DNA from: Bacteroidota bacterium
GTDB lineage: Bacteria; Bacteroidota; Bacteroidia; Flavobacteriales_D; Sanyastnellaceae
Assembly: GCA_027593035.1 (NCBI GenBank)
Contig: JAQCJQ010000014.1
Location: 1 to 34,356 of the forward strand
Direction of reading: 5' to 3'
DNA: 34,356 nt
Of this stretch, positions 8,581-15,042 are shown piece by piece (positions within the stretch are counted from its first letter, which is position 1; each line of letters begins with the position of its first letter). The position numbers and the translations under genes were made by a program. The notes below the pieces were generated by a model. The model was given only the letters and a program-made list of their open reading frames with translations. It made no database searches and had not been told where the DNA came from.

Positions 8581-11001
8581 ATGAATCGATTTTACCCCTT
8601 GTTCTTGGCCTTGGGTTTCTTCATGTCTTTGACCCCGACCATCGCTCAGACGTCAACCATCAGCGGGACCGTCTTGGATGCCGAAGCGCGTTACCCCTTG
8701 ATCAATGCCACCGTTCAGCTCAAATCCATTGAAGGGGTTGTTGTAGCCACCGATATGGATGGGCGATTTGAATTTCAAGATGTTCCTGTGGGGCGCCATT
8801 TGGTGGTGGCCTCTTTCATGGGATACGAATCCCGCGTGATGGACGGCGTGGTCGTCAACAGTGGTCGTCCGGTCATCTTGGAAGTGAAAATGCAGGAATC
8901 GGTGATCGCCATTGAAGCGGCTGAAGTCACGGCCACGCAACAAGGCGAAGTCATGAATGAAATGGCCACGGTCAGCGCGCGTGCGTTTACGGTAGAGGAA
9001 ACAGAACGTTATGCCGGTTCGCGGGGCGATCCCGCCCGGATGGCGAGCAACTTCGCCGGAGTCCAAGGCGCGGATGATAGCCGCAATGACATCGTTGTTC
9101 GGGGCAACAGCCCAAGCGGAGTCCTCTGGCGATTGGAAGGGGTGGACATTCCCAACCCCAATCACTTTAGCATCCCTGGAACGGGAGGCGGTCCGGTCGC
9201 GATTTTGAACAACAAAGTGTTGGCCAATTCCGACTTCTTCACAGCGGCTTTTCCGGCAGAGTTTGGTAACAGCACATCGGCCGTGTTTGATTTGCGGATG
9301 CGCAACGGCTCGCAAGCCAGGCCTGTGAGTAGCATTCAATTTGGATTTTTGGGAGCAGAACTCATGTTTGAAGGCCCGCTCAATCGAGAAAAACGATCCA
9401 GCTACTTGGTCAACTATCGCTACAGCAGCGCAGCCATTTTCTCCGCGGTGGGGATTGACATCGGAACCAGCGCGGTGCCGAAATACCAAGACGGTAGCTT
9501 CCGCTTGTTCTTCCCTCAATCCAACGGTGGGGCTTTGGCTTTGTGGGGAATTGGTGGGGTAAGTGACATCGATATCCTCATTTCTGAGCAAGAAAAGCCA
9601 GAACGCAACCTCTATGGCGACAACGACCGCGATCAATACTTCGGTTCTGGCATGGGCATTTTGGGAGCGACCTATACCCGTCCCCTCAACGAGCAGACGT
9701 ACATGAAAGCGACCATTGCAGCGAGCCGTTCTTACCAGGATAGTGAGCATGACCTGGTGTATCGTCAATTGACGGCTGATAGCTTGTTCCAGAATGATAG
9801 CATTGTGGATTACATGGGGTACCAATTCATCAATGACCGGGTGAGTGCAGCGGTTCATGTCAATCGCAAACTGAGCCGCAATGCGAGCTTGCGCTTTGGA
9901 TTGAATGTGGATGGCATGTTTTGGAACTTCCAGGACAGCGTTCGGGTGGAATTGGATTCTTCCGATGCTCTGGGCGGGTGGAACCAACGTTGGGATGCAC
10001 AATTGCAAACGGCGTTGGTGCAGCCGTTCATCCAATGGAAGTACCGTCCGAATGAGAAAATCACGGTGACTGCAGGTTGGCACGCGGCGTACCATTCGCT
10101 TTCAGGCGACGTTTCGCCATTCGAGCCTCGATTGGGCATGCAATACAAGGCCAATGACCGAACGGTGTTCAGCGCTGGAGCCGGGCTGCATAGCCAGACC
10201 CAAGCTTCGTACCTCTATGCAAGTGCCACAGGCACAGACATCGAAGGGAATCTGATCATGCCGAACCAACAGATGGAAATGACGCGCAGTCTCCACACTG
10301 TGGTGGGCATGTCACGCCAGTTGAATTCAGACTGGTCGTTGAAAATGGAGGCGTATTACCAGGAACTTAGCAACATTCCGGTTGAGATCCAATCGAGCAG
10401 CTTCTCGCTGATCAATTCCGGTGCGGGATTCAATCGCTTTTTCCCGGACTCACTCGTCAATGAAGGAACGGGCCGCAATTACGGAGTGGAAGCCACGGTG
10501 GCTCGTGCATTCAGGGACGGTTGGTTCATGATGCTCACGGGGTCGCTGTTTGACTCCAAGTATGCCGGGAGCGATGGTGTGGAGCGCAACACCGATTTCA
10601 ATGGGCAGTATGCCTGGAACGCCTTGGCCAGCCGGGATTGGAAATTCAATGATCAGTGGCGTTTGGTCACGGGCTTAAAATTCACGATGGCTGGAGGAAG
10701 ACGGTATGGTTACGCCGATCCGGAAGCCAGTGCGGAAGCGCGCGAGGTGGTCTTCTTTGATGAGGACTTCAATTCCCGTCAGTTCGATCCGTATATGCGG
10801 CTTGACTTCAAAACCAATGTGACGTGGAATCGACCAGAAAGCACCCATGAATTGGGCATCGACTTTGTGAATGTCACTGGACGCCAAAACGTGTTGAAGT
10901 TGACCTATGCTCCGGATGACTCTAACAACTCGGACGACAACATCCGGGAGGAGTACCAGTTGGGCTTCCTGCCGATCTTTTTCTACCGCGTCGACTTCTA
11001 A
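8581..11001 (+). CDS. TonB-dependent outer-membrane receptor with CarboxypepD_reg-like N-terminal domain
   Basis: This 806-aa outer-membrane protein has a signal peptide ending near TIAQ (residue 20). Next is a carboxypeptidase regulatory-like beta-sandwich of about 85 residues beginning TSTISGTVLDAEARYPL and containing TDMDGRFEFQDVPVG. A plug domain follows, with DIVVRGNSPSGVLWRLEGVDI and NPNHFS, and then a long beta-barrel ending in FFYRVDF with a terminal Phe. I chose the ATG at 8581 because it directly starts the signal peptide; the open frame extends further upstream, but that part is antisense to the hydrolase gene. The ligand is not identifiable, and the gene is separate from the ABC importer. 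The stop overlaps the convergent xerD stop by a few bases. Confidence 0.9.
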   Translation: MNRFYPLFLALGFFMSLTPTIAQTSTISGTVLDAEARYPLINATVQLKSIEGVVVATDMDGRFEFQDVPVGRHLVVASFMGYESRVMDGVVVNSGRPVILEVKMQESVIAIEAAEVTATQQGEVMNEMATVSARAFTVEETERYAGSRGDPARMASNFAGVQGADDSRNDIVVRGNSPSGVLWRLEGVDIPNPNHFSIPGTGGGPVAILNNKVLANSDFFTAAFPAEFGNSTSAVFDLRMRNGSQARPVSSIQFGFLGAELMFEGPLNREKRSSYLVNYRYSSAAIFSAVGIDIGTSAVPKYQDGSFRLFFPQSNGGALALWGIGGVSDIDILISEQEKPERNLYGDNDRDQYFGSGMGILGATYTRPLNEQTYMKATIAASRSYQDSEHDLVYRQLTADSLFQNDSIVDYMGYQFINDRVSAAVHVNRKLSRNASLRFGLNVDGMFWNFQDSVRVELDSSDALGGWNQRWDAQLQTALVQPFIQWKYRPNEKITVTAGWHAAYHSLSGDVSPFEPRLGMQYKANDRTVFSAGAGLHSQTQASYLYASATGTDIEGNLIMPNQQMEMTRSLHTVVGMSRQLNSDWSLKMEAYYQELSNIPVEIQSSSFSLINSGAGFNRFFPDSLVNEGTGRNYGVEATVARAFRDGWFMMLTGSLFDSKYAGSDGVERNTDFNGQYAWNALASRDWKFNDQWRLVTGLKFTMAGGRRYGYADPEASAEAREVVFFDEDFNSRQFDPYMRLDFKTNVTWNRPESTHELGIDFVNVTGRQNVLKLTYAPDDSNNSDDNIREEYQLGFLPIFFYRVDF

Positions 11002-11963
11002 GCCTTTGTGGTTTTTTTGTCTGCCGTCTTGACAGGAGCGGACTCACCACTGCGAGGATGAAATTGGATGATCTGCTCGCGCAGGAATCGTCGATCCAGG
11101 TGGGTGTAGATCTCGGTGGTGGCGATCTGTGCGTGCCCCAGCATTTGCTGTACGGCTCGCAAGTCGGCTCCGGCTTCAACCAAATGGGTTGCAAAACTGT
11201 GCCGGAACGTGTGTGGGCTGATGGTTTTCCGAACGCCCGAACTGATCGCTGCTCTGCGCAACATGGTAAAAGCCATTTGACGACTCAAACCGCGACCTTG
11301 TCGGCCAAGAAAGAGTGTGTCTTCGCTGCCTTTGATGGGGATGATTTGCGATCGATATTCTGCCAGGTAGTCGTCGATGGCATTCAGGGCATCCGTCCCG
11401 ATGGGAATGGCCCGCTCTTTATCGCCCTTGCCAATGACTTGGATGACCCGGTCAATGAAGTCGACTTCCGACAGACGCAATTCACACAACTCGGTTACGC
11501 GCAAACCACAGCTGTAGAGCACTTCTAGCATCGCTTTGTTGCGGACACCCTCGCGGCGGGATAAATCAACTCCACCGATGATCTGGCCAATCTCTTTGAC
11601 ACTCAATACATCGGGGAGTTTGCGCTGAGGACGAGGGGATTCAACCAATTCCACGGGATCATCCGTTAGAATGCCCTCTAGACGTAGGTATTTGCTGAAA
11701 CTTCGGATTCCGGACAACATGCGCGCTTGGCTGTTCCGTGCCAGATCACGATCAAACAAATACCCCATGAAGTGTTCGATGCACTCCATGGTGATTAGGC
11801 CGGGTGAACTCACGGCTTCTTCCTTTTCCACATATTCGGCAAATTGCTCAATATCACGGGTATAGGCGGAGATGGAATTCTTGCTCAGGCCACGCTCCAG
11901 TTCGAGGTAGGTGCGATAGCCGGTAATGGCGGATTTCCAATCAGAGGAATTTTTGCTGGTCAT
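10998..11963 (-). CDS. xerD: Site-specific tyrosine recombinase XerD
   Basis: This 321-aa recombinase resolves chromosome dimers at dif together with a XerC partner. The N-terminal SAM-like core-binding domain starts with YLELERGLSKNSISAYTRDI. The catalytic domain has the first Arg in YSCGLRVTELCEL, the Lys in GKGDKERAIPI, HxxR in HTFRHSFATHLVEAGADL, the second His in MLGHAQIATTEIYTH and the nucleophile Tyr in that same segment. The ATG at 11963 overlaps the upstream gene's stop as ATGA, so I prefer it to the TTG three codons earlier. It is probably co-expressed with the SPOR-domain gene. I favour XerD over XerC from overall motif wording, not from an alignment. Confidence 0.92.
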   Translation of the reverse strand: MTSKNSSDWKSAITGYRTYLELERGLSKNSISAYTRDIEQFAEYVEKEEAVSSPGLITMECIEHFMGYLFDRDLARNSQARMLSGIRSFSKYLRLEGILTDDPVELVESPRPQRKLPDVLSVKEIGQIIGGVDLSRREGVRNKAMLEVLYSCGLRVTELCELRLSEVDFIDRVIQVIGKGDKERAIPIGTDALNAIDDYLAEYRSQIIPIKGSEDTLFLGRQGRGLSRQMAFTMLRRAAISSGVRKTISPHTFRHSFATHLVEAGADLRAVQQMLGHAQIATTEIYTHLDRRFLREQIIQFHPRSGESAPVKTADKKTTKA

Positions 11964-13162
11964 GGCATCCAATTTTGTTGGGAGAGTAAGAGAGCTTCTT
12001 GGACTGTAATGCGCTCGTTTCTTAAATAAGCGGTCACGAACGGGCCGGAAAATTGATGGGCCTGTGCAATGCGCACACGGGCATTTCGGGCTTGCCGATA
12101 TTCGGTGTGACTTCCTGTGGTGTATTTGATCCAGTGATTGTGCTGTTCAGCATCCACCTGATCGTTGAACTGATAATGGTCTTGAAACCATTGCTGGTCC
12201 ACGTCGCGATGACACGCCATGATTTGAATCCGATAGGCGATGCCTTCATCGGGGCTGGGAACCGAGAAGTCGGGCCGGACAGGGGTGACGGTCGCGGGAG
12301 TTGCTGTTGGCGTTGCTTCCGGGGTCACCACAGTTGCAAGGCTGGGGGATGCTCCCTCGAATGCAATCGCGGGCACCCCGACCGAATGCGGTTTGTTGTT
12401 CAAAATGGTGTGCCAGGTACCGCTAATGCCAGAGGTGCAGACAGTCAAATCGCCGAATAAGCGATAGGACAATTTCAATGTCGGGACGGCGGGGGATTGT
12501 TGCCACACCAAAAGCAAGGTGTCACCGAAGCGATCTTGGATGCTCGGGTTTCCATTGGATTCCCATTCAAAAACACAGCCTGTTGGGATGATTTCTTCCC
12601 ATTTCATGAAGGACCCGGATTCAAATCCCGTGAATTCCACCTCCATGCGTCCCACATCGGAGCCTTCCTGGCTGAATGATCGCCTCGCTTGAGGATTCCA
12701 TGAAGCATTCGAAGCGATGGCTGTACCGGAGGGTTGTTCGAGCGAAATCACATGGGGCTCAAATTCGACATCGCGCCGGGAACCTTCCTCAATGAATGAA
12801 AACCATTGTTTGACTTCGCCTCCAATGAAATTGTTTTGGGCCGTTAGCCGCACGGAAACATGAACTGAAGGGGAGGCCGGAATGTCCATCCAAATGAACT
12901 TGGCTTTTTGATCCTCGAACGTAAAAGAGGCGCCATCCGTCTTGATGGGTTCAACGAAAAGTCCTTCAGGACAGCTGAGTTGAAGACGCGCAAACCCCGA
13001 GGTTTGCCCTTTGTCGATGGTCCAAGTAGCCACTACACTGGATCCCTTCTCCATGGAATCGGGTAGCGTGTGTTCTTCAACCAGCCCCAGACCAATGAAC
13101 AGCATCAATGCGTTGATCAGGGGGTGATACAGAATGGAGGAAGCGAAAGCGAATAGAGCCAT
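11960..13162 (-). CDS. Secreted or membrane-anchored protein with a C-terminal SPOR-like domain
   Basis: This protein of about 400 aa begins with a hydrophobic segment (about residues 1-30, lacking a strongly basic N-terminus) that could be a signal anchor. A beta-rich middle region of unknown function follows, then a linker rich in Pro, Thr and Ala (TPEATPTATPATVTPVRP). The C-terminal part of about 90 residues starts YRIQIMAC and contains WIKYTTGSHTEYRQARNARV and FVTAYLRNERITVQEAL, the pattern of SPOR-like domains in Bacteroidota, which bind denuded peptidoglycan. This suggests a periplasmic envelope role. The ATG at 13162 is preferred to a TTG three codons upstream. A weak -7 candidate (TAGCTTCG, minus 13188-13181) lies 18 nt before it. 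It is coupled to xerD through an ATGA overlap. Confidence 0.7.
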   Translation of the reverse strand: MALFAFASSILYHPLINALMLFIGLGLVEEHTLPDSMEKGSSVVATWTIDKGQTSGFARLQLSCPEGLFVEPIKTDGASFTFEDQKAKFIWMDIPASPSVHVSVRLTAQNNFIGGEVKQWFSFIEEGSRRDVEFEPHVISLEQPSGTAIASNASWNPQARRSFSQEGSDVGRMEVEFTGFESGSFMKWEEIIPTGCVFEWESNGNPSIQDRFGDTLLLVWQQSPAVPTLKLSYRLFGDLTVCTSGISGTWHTILNNKPHSVGVPAIAFEGASPSLATVVTPEATPTATPATVTPVRPDFSVPSPDEGIAYRIQIMACHRDVDQQWFQDHYQFNDQVDAEQHNHWIKYTTGSHTEYRQARNARVRIAQAHQFSGPFVTAYLRNERITVQEALLLSQQNWMP

Positions 13163-13280
13163 GAATGCCAACAGTATATGCGAAGCTACCCGTCAAAAGG
13201 GCGCATTGCAGCGGCGTCAAATAGACTTTCAAACAGCGTAGTGTGGGCTGATTGCGTGGCGATTGTGAAAACAGGCGCAA

Positions 13281-13371
13281 AAAAAAATAGTCCTGTCCCG
13301 GCGTTCCGGGACAGGACCAACTTAACCAAATTATCACTTGATGCTTAGCTTGCGCTAAACTCACTTAAAAC
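13281..13371 (-). ncRNA. Candidate small RNA of about 90 nt with its own promoter and terminator
   Basis: On the minus strand, a perfect -7 element TAACTTTG (13384-13377) is followed by a stretch with many stops and no ORF. Next is a 5-bp hairpin closed by a GCAA tetraloop (13358-13345: TTAGC, GCAA, GCTAA). The stretch ends in a 12-bp perfect stem with an AACG loop (13317-13290) followed by TA and a run of T. The predicted start is near 13371 and the end near 13281. A weak -33 (GTTTAA, 13406-13401) is 16-18 nt upstream. The T run and the GNRA loop exist only in the minus-strand reading. No known RNA family is recognised; a leader attenuator for the SPOR-domain gene is the alternative. Confidence 0.4.
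13282..13317 (-). terminator. Strong rho-independent terminator
   Basis: A perfect 12-bp stem (GTCCTGTCCCGG with its complement, 13290-13301 and 13306-13317) encloses a 4-nt loop. Read on the minus strand it is followed by TA and an uninterrupted T tract. It would end a minus-strand transcript arising in the gap upstream of the SPOR-domain gene. Confidence 0.75.
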
Positions 13372-13455
13372 CAATTCAAAGTTAGGATGCGGTTTAGGTG
13401 TTAAACGGAGATGTTGAAATGGTTATTGACAGCCTTTCGTTAAAAAAGTCAACCC

Positions 13456-13486
13456 TTTGGATTTGACTGATTATCCGCTATCTTTG
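13456..13486 (+). promoter_or_regulatory. rpmE promoter, TTTG-N19-TATCTTTG
   Basis: TTTG at 13456-13459 is followed after 19 bases by TATCTTTG at 13479-13486, matching the Bacteroidota -33/-7 consensus exactly in sequence and spacing. The rpmE ATG is 18 nt further on, so the leader is short. This is the best complete promoter in the window. Confidence 0.75.
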
Positions 13487-13504
13487 CGCCCCAATTAAGG
13501 AAAG

Positions 13505-13819
13505 ATGAAGTCAGGAATTCACCCCGAAAATTATCGCTTGGTTGTCTTTAAGGACATGTCCAACGAGTACTCGTTTTTGAGCCGTTCGGCTGCGAATGCA
13601 AAGGAATCTGTAGTTTGGGATGATGGGAATGAATACCCTTTGATCAAAATTGAAGTGAGCCACAAGTCGCATCCGTTCTATACGGGTAAGGCCCAGTTCG
13701 TGGATACAGCAGGACGAATTGATAAGTTCCGTAAGAAGTATGGTCAGTTTGGCGGCAAAGCCAATCCGGACAATCAGCCAGATGCTCCAGAGGAAGCTCC
13801 GGCTGCGACGGAAGAATAA
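13505..13819 (+). CDS. rpmE2: 50S ribosomal protein L31 type B
   Basis: This 104-aa protein matches type B L31: it opens with MKSGIHPENYRLVVFKDMS and contains SHKSHPFYTGKAQFVDTAGR and DKFRKKYG. There are no cysteines, so it is the zinc-free form. The C-terminus carries an acidic Pro/Ala/Glu tail longer than in many homologues. L31 bridges the ribosomal subunits. It is transcribed alone from a consensus promoter and followed by a terminator hairpin shared with the convergent riboflavin gene. Confidence 0.95.
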   Translation: MKSGIHPENYRLVVFKDMSNEYSFLSRSAANAKESVVWDDGNEYPLIKIEVSHKSHPFYTGKAQFVDTAGRIDKFRKKYGQFGGKANPDNQPDAPEEAPAATEE

Positions 13820-13831
13820 ACTGGCCTCGCC

Positions 13832-13870
13832 AGAAAAAAAAAGCCACCGGTTTTCCAGTGGCTTTTTTTT
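13832..13870. terminator. Bidirectional terminator between rpmE and ribBX
   Basis: A run of A, then GCCAC-C-GG, a TTTT loop, CC-A-GTGGC and a run of T form one hairpin flanked by A and T tracts. It can serve the plus-strand rpmE transcript and the convergent minus-strand riboflavin gene. Confidence 0.8.
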
Positions 13871-13923: not shown

Positions 13924-15042
13924 TCAGAGAGACAAGGGAGTCGTGCCGGTAATCTCCAAGCCGTATCCAATGATGCCCTTCTTTCTGGGGTGATCGGAAA
14001 GAATGTGCAAGCGGCGAATGCCCAAATTGCGGATGATTTGCGCGCCAATTCCATAGTCTTTTGAATCCATGGTGTTGATGTTCGCTGCCTGGGGGGTGGT
14101 TTGGTGCTTCTGGTAGGTTTTCAATTCTTCAATCAAGCCGCGCCCTTCGTCTAGCTTGTTGATGTAGACAATGGCTCCTTTGCCTTGATTCTGAATTTGC
14201 CGCAGGGCCGCATGCAATTCAGGGCCTTTTCCAAAGTCAGTCATTTGAAACACATCGCCGAGCATGCTCGAGCTGTGCACCCGGACGGGGACATCTTCAC
14301 TTTCATCCCATTCTCCAAGCGTCAAAGCGAGGTGTTCTACATCATTGGTCAATTGTCGAAACGCGATGGCCTTGAACGTGCCGAATGCGGTTTCAATGTT
14401 CAATTCCAAAGTGCGTTCAATGAGCGTTTCATTGGCCAAGCGGTATTGAATCAGATCGGCGATGGAAACCAATTTCAGTTGGTGTTCGTTGGCGAGTTGC
14501 CGGCATTCAGGCAATCGCGCCATGGTGCCGTCCTCGTTCATGATTTCCACAATGACTCCGGCGGGCTCGAAACCGGCGAGTCTTGAAAAATCGATGGCTG
14601 CTTCGGTGTGTCCTGCTCTTCGCAGTACCCCTCCGGGTTTGGCGCGGAGCGGGAAAATGTGCCCGGGACGCCCCAATTCGTTGGGATCGGTTGTGGGATC
14701 AATCAGCGCTTGGATGGTTTTTGATCGGTCCTGTGCGGAGATGCCCGTTGTGCAACCGTGCCCCATCAAGTCCACGGAAACGGTAAAAGGCGTTTCAAAA
14801 GCTGCGTTGTTGGTTTGTACCATCAGGTCCAGCCCCAGTTCGTCACAGCGATTTTCAATCAACGGAGCGCAGATCAATCCGCGTCCATGCGTGGCCATGA
14901 AATTCACCACTTCGGGTGTCGCGTGTCGCGCCGCAATGAGGAAATCCCCTTCATTCTCTCGGTCTTCATCGTCCACGACAATGATCACTTCTCCTCTTCG
15001 AATGGCTTCAATTGCCTCGGGAATGGTGTCCAACATGCTCAT
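13924..15042 (-). CDS. ribB: 3,4-dihydroxy-2-butanone 4-phosphate synthase fused to a degenerate GTP cyclohydrolase II-like domain (RibBX type)
   Basis: This 372-aa protein has an N-terminal RibB domain (about 1-205) with all key motifs: DDEDRENEGDF, THGRGLICAPL, TTGISAQDRS, GRPGHIFPL and RAGHTEAAIDFSRLAG. It should convert ribulose 5-phosphate to the four-carbon riboflavin precursor. The C-terminal domain aligns by eye with RibA but has lost the zinc cysteines: where RibA has HSECxTGDxFxSxRCDCG, this protein reads HSSSMLGDVFQMTDFGKG. RQEGRGIGL is replaced by NKLDEGRGLIEEL, and the C-terminal tail is short. It is therefore probably not a GTP cyclohydrolase; an intact one is encoded at 29218. 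The ATG at 15042 follows TACTTTTG by 4 nt, fixing the start. The gene is divergent from def. Confidence 0.9.
   Translation of the reverse strand: MSMLDTIPEAIEAIRRGEVIIVVDDEDRENEGDFLIAARHATPEVVNFMATHGRGLICAPLIENRCDELGLDLMVQTNNAAFETPFTVSVDLMGHGCTTGISAQDRSKTIQALIDPTTDPNELGRPGHIFPLRAKPGGVLRRAGHTEAAIDFSRLAGFEPAGVIVEIMNEDGTMARLPECRQLANEHQLKLVSIADLIQYRLANETLIERTLELNIETAFGTFKAIAFRQLTNDVEHLALTLGEWDESEDVPVRVHSSSMLGDVFQMTDFGKGPELHAALRQIQNQGKGAIVYINKLDEGRGLIEELKTYQKHQTTPQAANINTMDSKDYGIGAQIIRNLGIRRLHILSDHPRKKGIIGYGLEITGTTPLSL

Follow-up and report, generated by a model that had tools for sequence, protein, structure and literature searches.

The window, that is, the whole 34,356-nucleotide stretch of DNA analyzed here, has its largest observed gene-free gap at approximately positions 13171-13505, where a sequence-only reading had placed a candidate small RNA; an open-ended frame fills the 3' end of the window. 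The gap is bordered on one side by rpmE (type B L31; 13505-13819, plus strand), a divergent neighbor with conserved synteny, and on the other by the minus-strand gene of an uncharacterized protein, P403 (11960-13171), and by xerD (10998-11972, minus strand; TIGR02225 above cut-off) behind it. P403 returned no Pfam or NCBIfam match, and the SPOR domain after which the sequence-only reading had named this locus could not be detected in it. P403 is fast-evolving and precedes xerD at most loci of the bacterial family seen. The last upstream gene on the minus strand is ribBA, ending at 13924, with a hairpin flanked by A and T tracts at approximately 13833-13870.

Anatomy of the candidate small RNA

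Promoter element, both hairpins and terminator were found on the minus strand of 13281-13406 as had been described; these elements are conserved, and the two stems covary. The −7 element TAACTTTG (13384-13377, minus strand) is indeed a perfect match to TAnnTTTG, the Bacteroidota housekeeping promoter type, and is preceded by a −33-like GTTT (13406-13403, minus strand; CGTTT upstream of the −7 element) at a spacing of 18 nt, the CGTT of which is conserved across the genus in the alignment. Elements resembling −7 (TAnnTTTG, TAnnTTGC, GAnGTTTG) occupy the same position in most of 57 orthologues, with a distance to the RNA that is fixed in nearly all of them, and would thus provide the sRNA gene with a promoter of its own. 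Upstream of this putative promoter, TGTCAATAAC and TTTTTTAACG (minus strand, window 13422-13447) are conserved genus-wide and could possibly represent a site of regulation lying between the two divergent promoters, those of rpmE and of the sRNA. The equivalent region of one relative (L015) contains a DnaA-box-like TGTGGATAAC.

The RNA was delimited by its conservation boundary, covariation and folding stability to approximately 92 nt (13372-13281, minus strand); the −7 element, together with the limit of conservation, puts the 5' end at about 13372, and the 3' end would lie at about 13281 in the T tract. The minus strand folds with −46.7 kcal/mol versus −26.5 kcal/mol for shuffled sequences (z = −5.9), none of 200 shuffles being equally stable. 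It would begin with a 5' single strand GGTTTTAAGTGA (13372-13361, minus strand; mean pairwise identity 0.967 versus about 0.3 in the flanks), of which TTAAGTGAG is almost invariant, followed by a covarying 7-bp hairpin 1 (GTTTAGC-GCAA-GCTAAGC, 13360-13343, minus strand). The GCAA-tetraloop hairpin emphasized in the sequence-only reading is therefore present in this genome, but its GNRA loop is not conserved, the loops of orthologues being 4-6 nt in length (CGCAGC, ACTGC, GAAGA and UUCG, for example). Next comes a conserved core GCATCAAGTGATAATTTGGTTAAG (13344-13321, minus strand), retained in both blastn orthologues and GTDB stretches, which ends in the motif TTTGGTTAAG (13330-13321, minus strand) that is common to the paralogues described below. 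Mean pairwise identity is 0.967 for UUAAGUGAG and reaches 1.0 for the core versus 0.26-0.34 in the flanks; since the core itself served to collect many of the rows, the value of 1.0 is partly circular, and the blastn-found set agrees with it.

The intrinsic terminator consists of a 12-bp stem (13317-13290, minus strand) with an AACG loop at 13305-13302, and then TA and a tract of nine T (13287-13279, minus strand), and the plus strand is without such a T tract, both as previously proposed. This terminator does not serve ribBA because rpmE intervenes on the opposite strand and ribBA has its own hairpin, leaving it with no gene to serve other than the RNA. A GTG-initiated frame (13364-13077) crosses the sRNA. 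However, loop indels of 1-2 nt among the orthologues break this frame, and the description of the RNA as an approximately 90-nt transcript without an ORF therefore stands.

Conservation and covariation at the rpmE locus

A blastn-type search of 99 relatives recovered the RNA segment in 20 of 21 congeners at 83-99% identity, as well as in several genera of the same family, with the cleanest alignments spanning 13373 to 13281, so that they begin just past the −7 element and end at the T tract. Covariance model R1 detected a strong orthologue in genera g1, g3, g9, g10, g13 and g14. Searching GTDB genomes for the exact 22-base core returned 62 stretches, nearly all from MAGs labeled Flavobacteriales or 'Crocinitomicaceae'; many are of marine origin, and a few stand under other labels. 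At every orthologous locus with sufficient flank the RNA is divergent from rpmE, and upstream and on the same strand of P403-xerD. An rpmE-anchored search added a clear same-locus copy in two g6 genomes, a diverged copy in one g14 genome (G034) and, in g20, candidates that are weak and much diverged, while rpmE of other genera is followed by a different gene or the locus is rearranged. The RNA is missing from the G007 and G059 assemblies, and this was not counted as loss but as a probable assembly gap because rpmE is missing there too.

By the criterion given in the sequence-only reading, failure of relatives to conserve the two stems would have counted against it, whereas both stems proved to covary, with terminator and T tract retained. 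Across 57 distinct orthologous sequences, standard pairs fill 99.5% of the base-pair cells, and 15 of the 19 pairs change on both sides (169 double-change cells). Compensatory changes affect 5 of the 6 inner pairs of hairpin 1 (99.0% of cells paired) and 10 of the 12 pairs of the terminator stem, indicating a structure conserved through compensatory change. The observed covariation values were not attained by any shuffle, and pairing fell below 45% when the partners were shifted by a single column. This alignment was fitted to the model, and an independent MAFFT alignment gave the same picture. The covarying stem with its T tract is what would be expected of an intrinsic terminator belonging to the RNA itself. 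On sequence grounds, these results establish 13372-13281 (minus strand) as an independent, structured RNA gene under selection.

A multicopy family under different promoters

Weak R1 matches turned out to be paralogues that carry TTTGGTTAAG and then a terminator hairpin, a multicopy setting that the sequence-only reading had not recognized. Their common 3' module consists of unpaired UUUGGUUAAG adjoining a terminator with the loop AACG in 90 of 105 copies. When 32 diverse copies were aligned for a broad-family model (R2), 97.4% of the cells were paired and double changes occurred in all 11 pairs. R2 matched 69 of 71 sampled genomes of the host bacterial family (each at least 85% complete) with 1-12 copies per genome, including a second copy in the host genome (G000:C44:25164-25240, minus strand, corresponding to L153:2665-2741). 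Outside the host family, weak matches were limited to 12 of the order's 228 remaining genomes and to 12 of 390 others in the phylum sample, and no clear R2 copies were found outside family f1 (392 phylum genomes). These out-of-family matches (33-37 bits) were treated as chance or distant, none of the best six having both TTTGGTTAAG and AACG complete.

Paralogues occur beside unrelated genes, and some form tandem arrays of 2-4 paralogous sRNA genes (L124, L125, L133, L154, L155 and L126). In several genera the arrays adjoin a BatE-like TPR gene, and a further paralogue is located directly upstream of a dapF-like (diaminopimelate epimerase) gene in three genomes (L128, L132 and L134). No Rfam 15 covariance model matched the RNA at either gathering or permissive thresholds, and a description of the family was not found in the literature searched, coverage of which was partial. 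The copies make up a multicopy RNA family that had not been catalogued before, and its bearers are one family of marine Flavobacteriales, mostly uncultured.

The promoters of the paralogues differ from copy to copy. A sigma-54 type TGGCAY-N5-TTG sequence lies approximately 55-80 nt upstream of the common motif in 25 copies, versus a chance expectation of about 0.0003 per copy, and RpoN is encoded. This set includes the second copy of the host and all its congeneric orthologues examined; the host's second copy, with the sigma-54 promoter TGGCACAGAGGTTGT, is conserved in congeners and is divergent from a thiolase gene, an arrangement seen in several genera as divergence from an acetyl-CoA acetyltransferase gene. 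Upstream of the first copy of several arrays, GAAACCT-N13-CCGTA is found at a constant distance of 79-80 nt (6 loci, some of which overlap), out of 10 matches in 2.1 Mb in all, and we take this sequence to resemble ECF promoters. As judged from these elements, transcription of the copies appears to depend on different sigma factors, namely housekeeping, sigma-54 and, in some arrays, ECF-like ones.

Mode of action and possible partners

Combined with its conservation, the arrangement of the rpmE-locus gene makes it probable that it is a stand-alone sRNA gene with its own housekeeping promoter and terminator, the best-conserved copy of a multicopy sibling family, for which action in trans would be most likely. 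The invariant unpaired segments would suit base pairing to mRNA and binding of a protein alike. In 22 congeneric genomes, 12-mer sites complementary to UUUGGUUAAG showed no excess (about 188 versus 390 in a reversed control), and no common long antisense target with up to 3 mismatches in 20 nt was found beyond the gene itself, apart from one match in a single genome. A simple mRNA regulon with a common seed is therefore not supported. Similarly, no convincing pairing with the sRNA was seen among 24 start regions of the window, where only 24667 (plus strand) stood out (z of −3 in 24 tests, with an uncertain start).

By contrast, GTTAAG repeats upstream of the anchor number 13 versus 0.7 expected and, like the fixed AACG loop, count for protein binding. 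Hfq, which an Hfq-dependent sRNA would call for, was not found in the host genome (PF17209; 93.6% complete, host genome alone searched). RRM_1 proteins are encoded by 38 of 50 high-quality genomes of the host family, including all 10 other congeners sampled, and most genera of the family other than g10 have one or two of them. RRM_1 was not found in the host assembly; this absence was initially taken as evidence against an RbpB-like partner, a point withdrawn since the congeners have RRM. Neither was RRM_1 found in any of the six g10 genomes sampled (G030, G049, G059, G129, G133 and G137), and because g10 retains the sRNA, RRM_1 is not an obligatory partner. We tentatively entertain a lineage-specific RNA hub, in which many sRNA genes with the UUUGGUUAAG module and AACG-loop terminator, each under a different sigma factor, would address one conserved partner.

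The same features bear on a titration model, in which GGUUAAG-like repeats and the AACG loop would sequester an RNA-binding protein, as in CsrB/RsmZ, and the amount of this protein left free would be set by copies that respond to different sigma factors. Repetition of GTTAAG/GGTT motifs in the unpaired part, constancy of motif and loop across copies while the stems drift, the lack of excess of complementary mRNA sites and the frequency of RRM_1 proteins in the host family are all consistent with this model. However, the best-conserved copy has few such motifs, RRM_1 is absent from the six sampled g10 genomes that have the sRNA and Hfq is absent from the host, and we regard titration as rather unlikely.

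More doubtful still is that the RNA acts in cis, as a leader or attenuator of P403-xerD, and not in trans. The gene downstream of it invariably has the same orientation, and in some g14 genomes, which are without P403, xerD comes directly after the RNA, with its ATG only about 30 nt past the T tract in some of these relatives. An attenuator, however, would need an antiterminator that covaries with the terminator, and no such pairing was observed: most pairs of the terminator differ between genera, yet the segments upstream are invariant. With no upstream sequence covarying with the terminator, and with paralogues at unrelated loci and in tandem arrays, attenuation is unlikely, and the retention of the RNA in lineages that lost P403 also argues against a leader function. 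Finally, that the sequence is simply a conserved DNA element or a mobile repeat, as the multicopy, sometimes tandem and intergenic occurrence might suggest, is very improbable given the RNA-type covariation, the strand-specific T tract, the promoter spacing and the retention of copies at orthologous rather than scattered loci.

Discussion

The most likely reading is that the family comprises sibling regulatory RNAs that place one effector module under several inputs. Transcription of the sRNA at the rpmE locus would start from a Bacteroidota housekeeping promoter and stop at a terminator, both belonging to the sRNA gene itself. Its siblings would share a 3' effector module of single-stranded, repeated GGUUAAG-like motifs and a terminator usually with an AACG loop, and would differ in their 5' parts and promoters (housekeeping, sigma-54 and probably ECF), such that several signals may feed one common RNA output.

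The nearest described systems by behavior appear to be FopS/GibS, LhrC and the Rfp RNAs, a likeness claimed in organization and not in descent. FopS/GibS of Bacteroides are multicopy paralogous sRNAs with a conserved shared sequence and an R1/R1' seed; most copies have housekeeping promoters while the relative GibS is driven differently, and FopS is conserved within Bacteroidaceae and bound by the RRM-type protein RbpB (PMC11697453). Compared by description, the present family is similar in its multiple copies, common sequence and mixed promoter control, and RRM_1 proteins are frequent in the host family outside g10, whereas the differences noted are the module of TTTGGTTAAG and AACG terminator, the copies under sigma-54 and the tandem arrays. 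LhrC genes have a partly tandem arrangement and repeated single-stranded motifs. The sibling family LhrC1-5 of Listeria is multicopy and induced under common stress (PMC5880928), a likeness in organization from an unrelated lineage. Rfp18 and other Rfp RNAs of Flavobacterium psychrophilum are, by description, likewise conserved, structured intergenic sRNAs of Flavobacteriales (PMC9723704), but R2 finds no clear copies outside the host family of this order. Among structured Bacteroidetes RNAs from comparative genomics, Flavo-1 (RF01705) and 6S-Flavo (RF01685) (PMC2864571) gave no match to the sRNA even at an E-value of 10. Several terminators of the family begin with GUCCY, which by description recalls the GUCCY-hairpin motif of Bacteroidetes and Proteobacteria, listed without an Rfam accession in the source table (PMC2864571).

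Post-transcriptional control in Bacteroidota beyond Bacteroides has been little explored. The module common to the copies makes the partner, whether an mRNA set or a protein, directly testable by pull-down. Almost all sampled genomes of a lineage dominated by marine members carry the RNA family described here; a covariance model for it is ready for use, its orthologues occupy fixed loci, and distinct sigma factors appear to control its copies.
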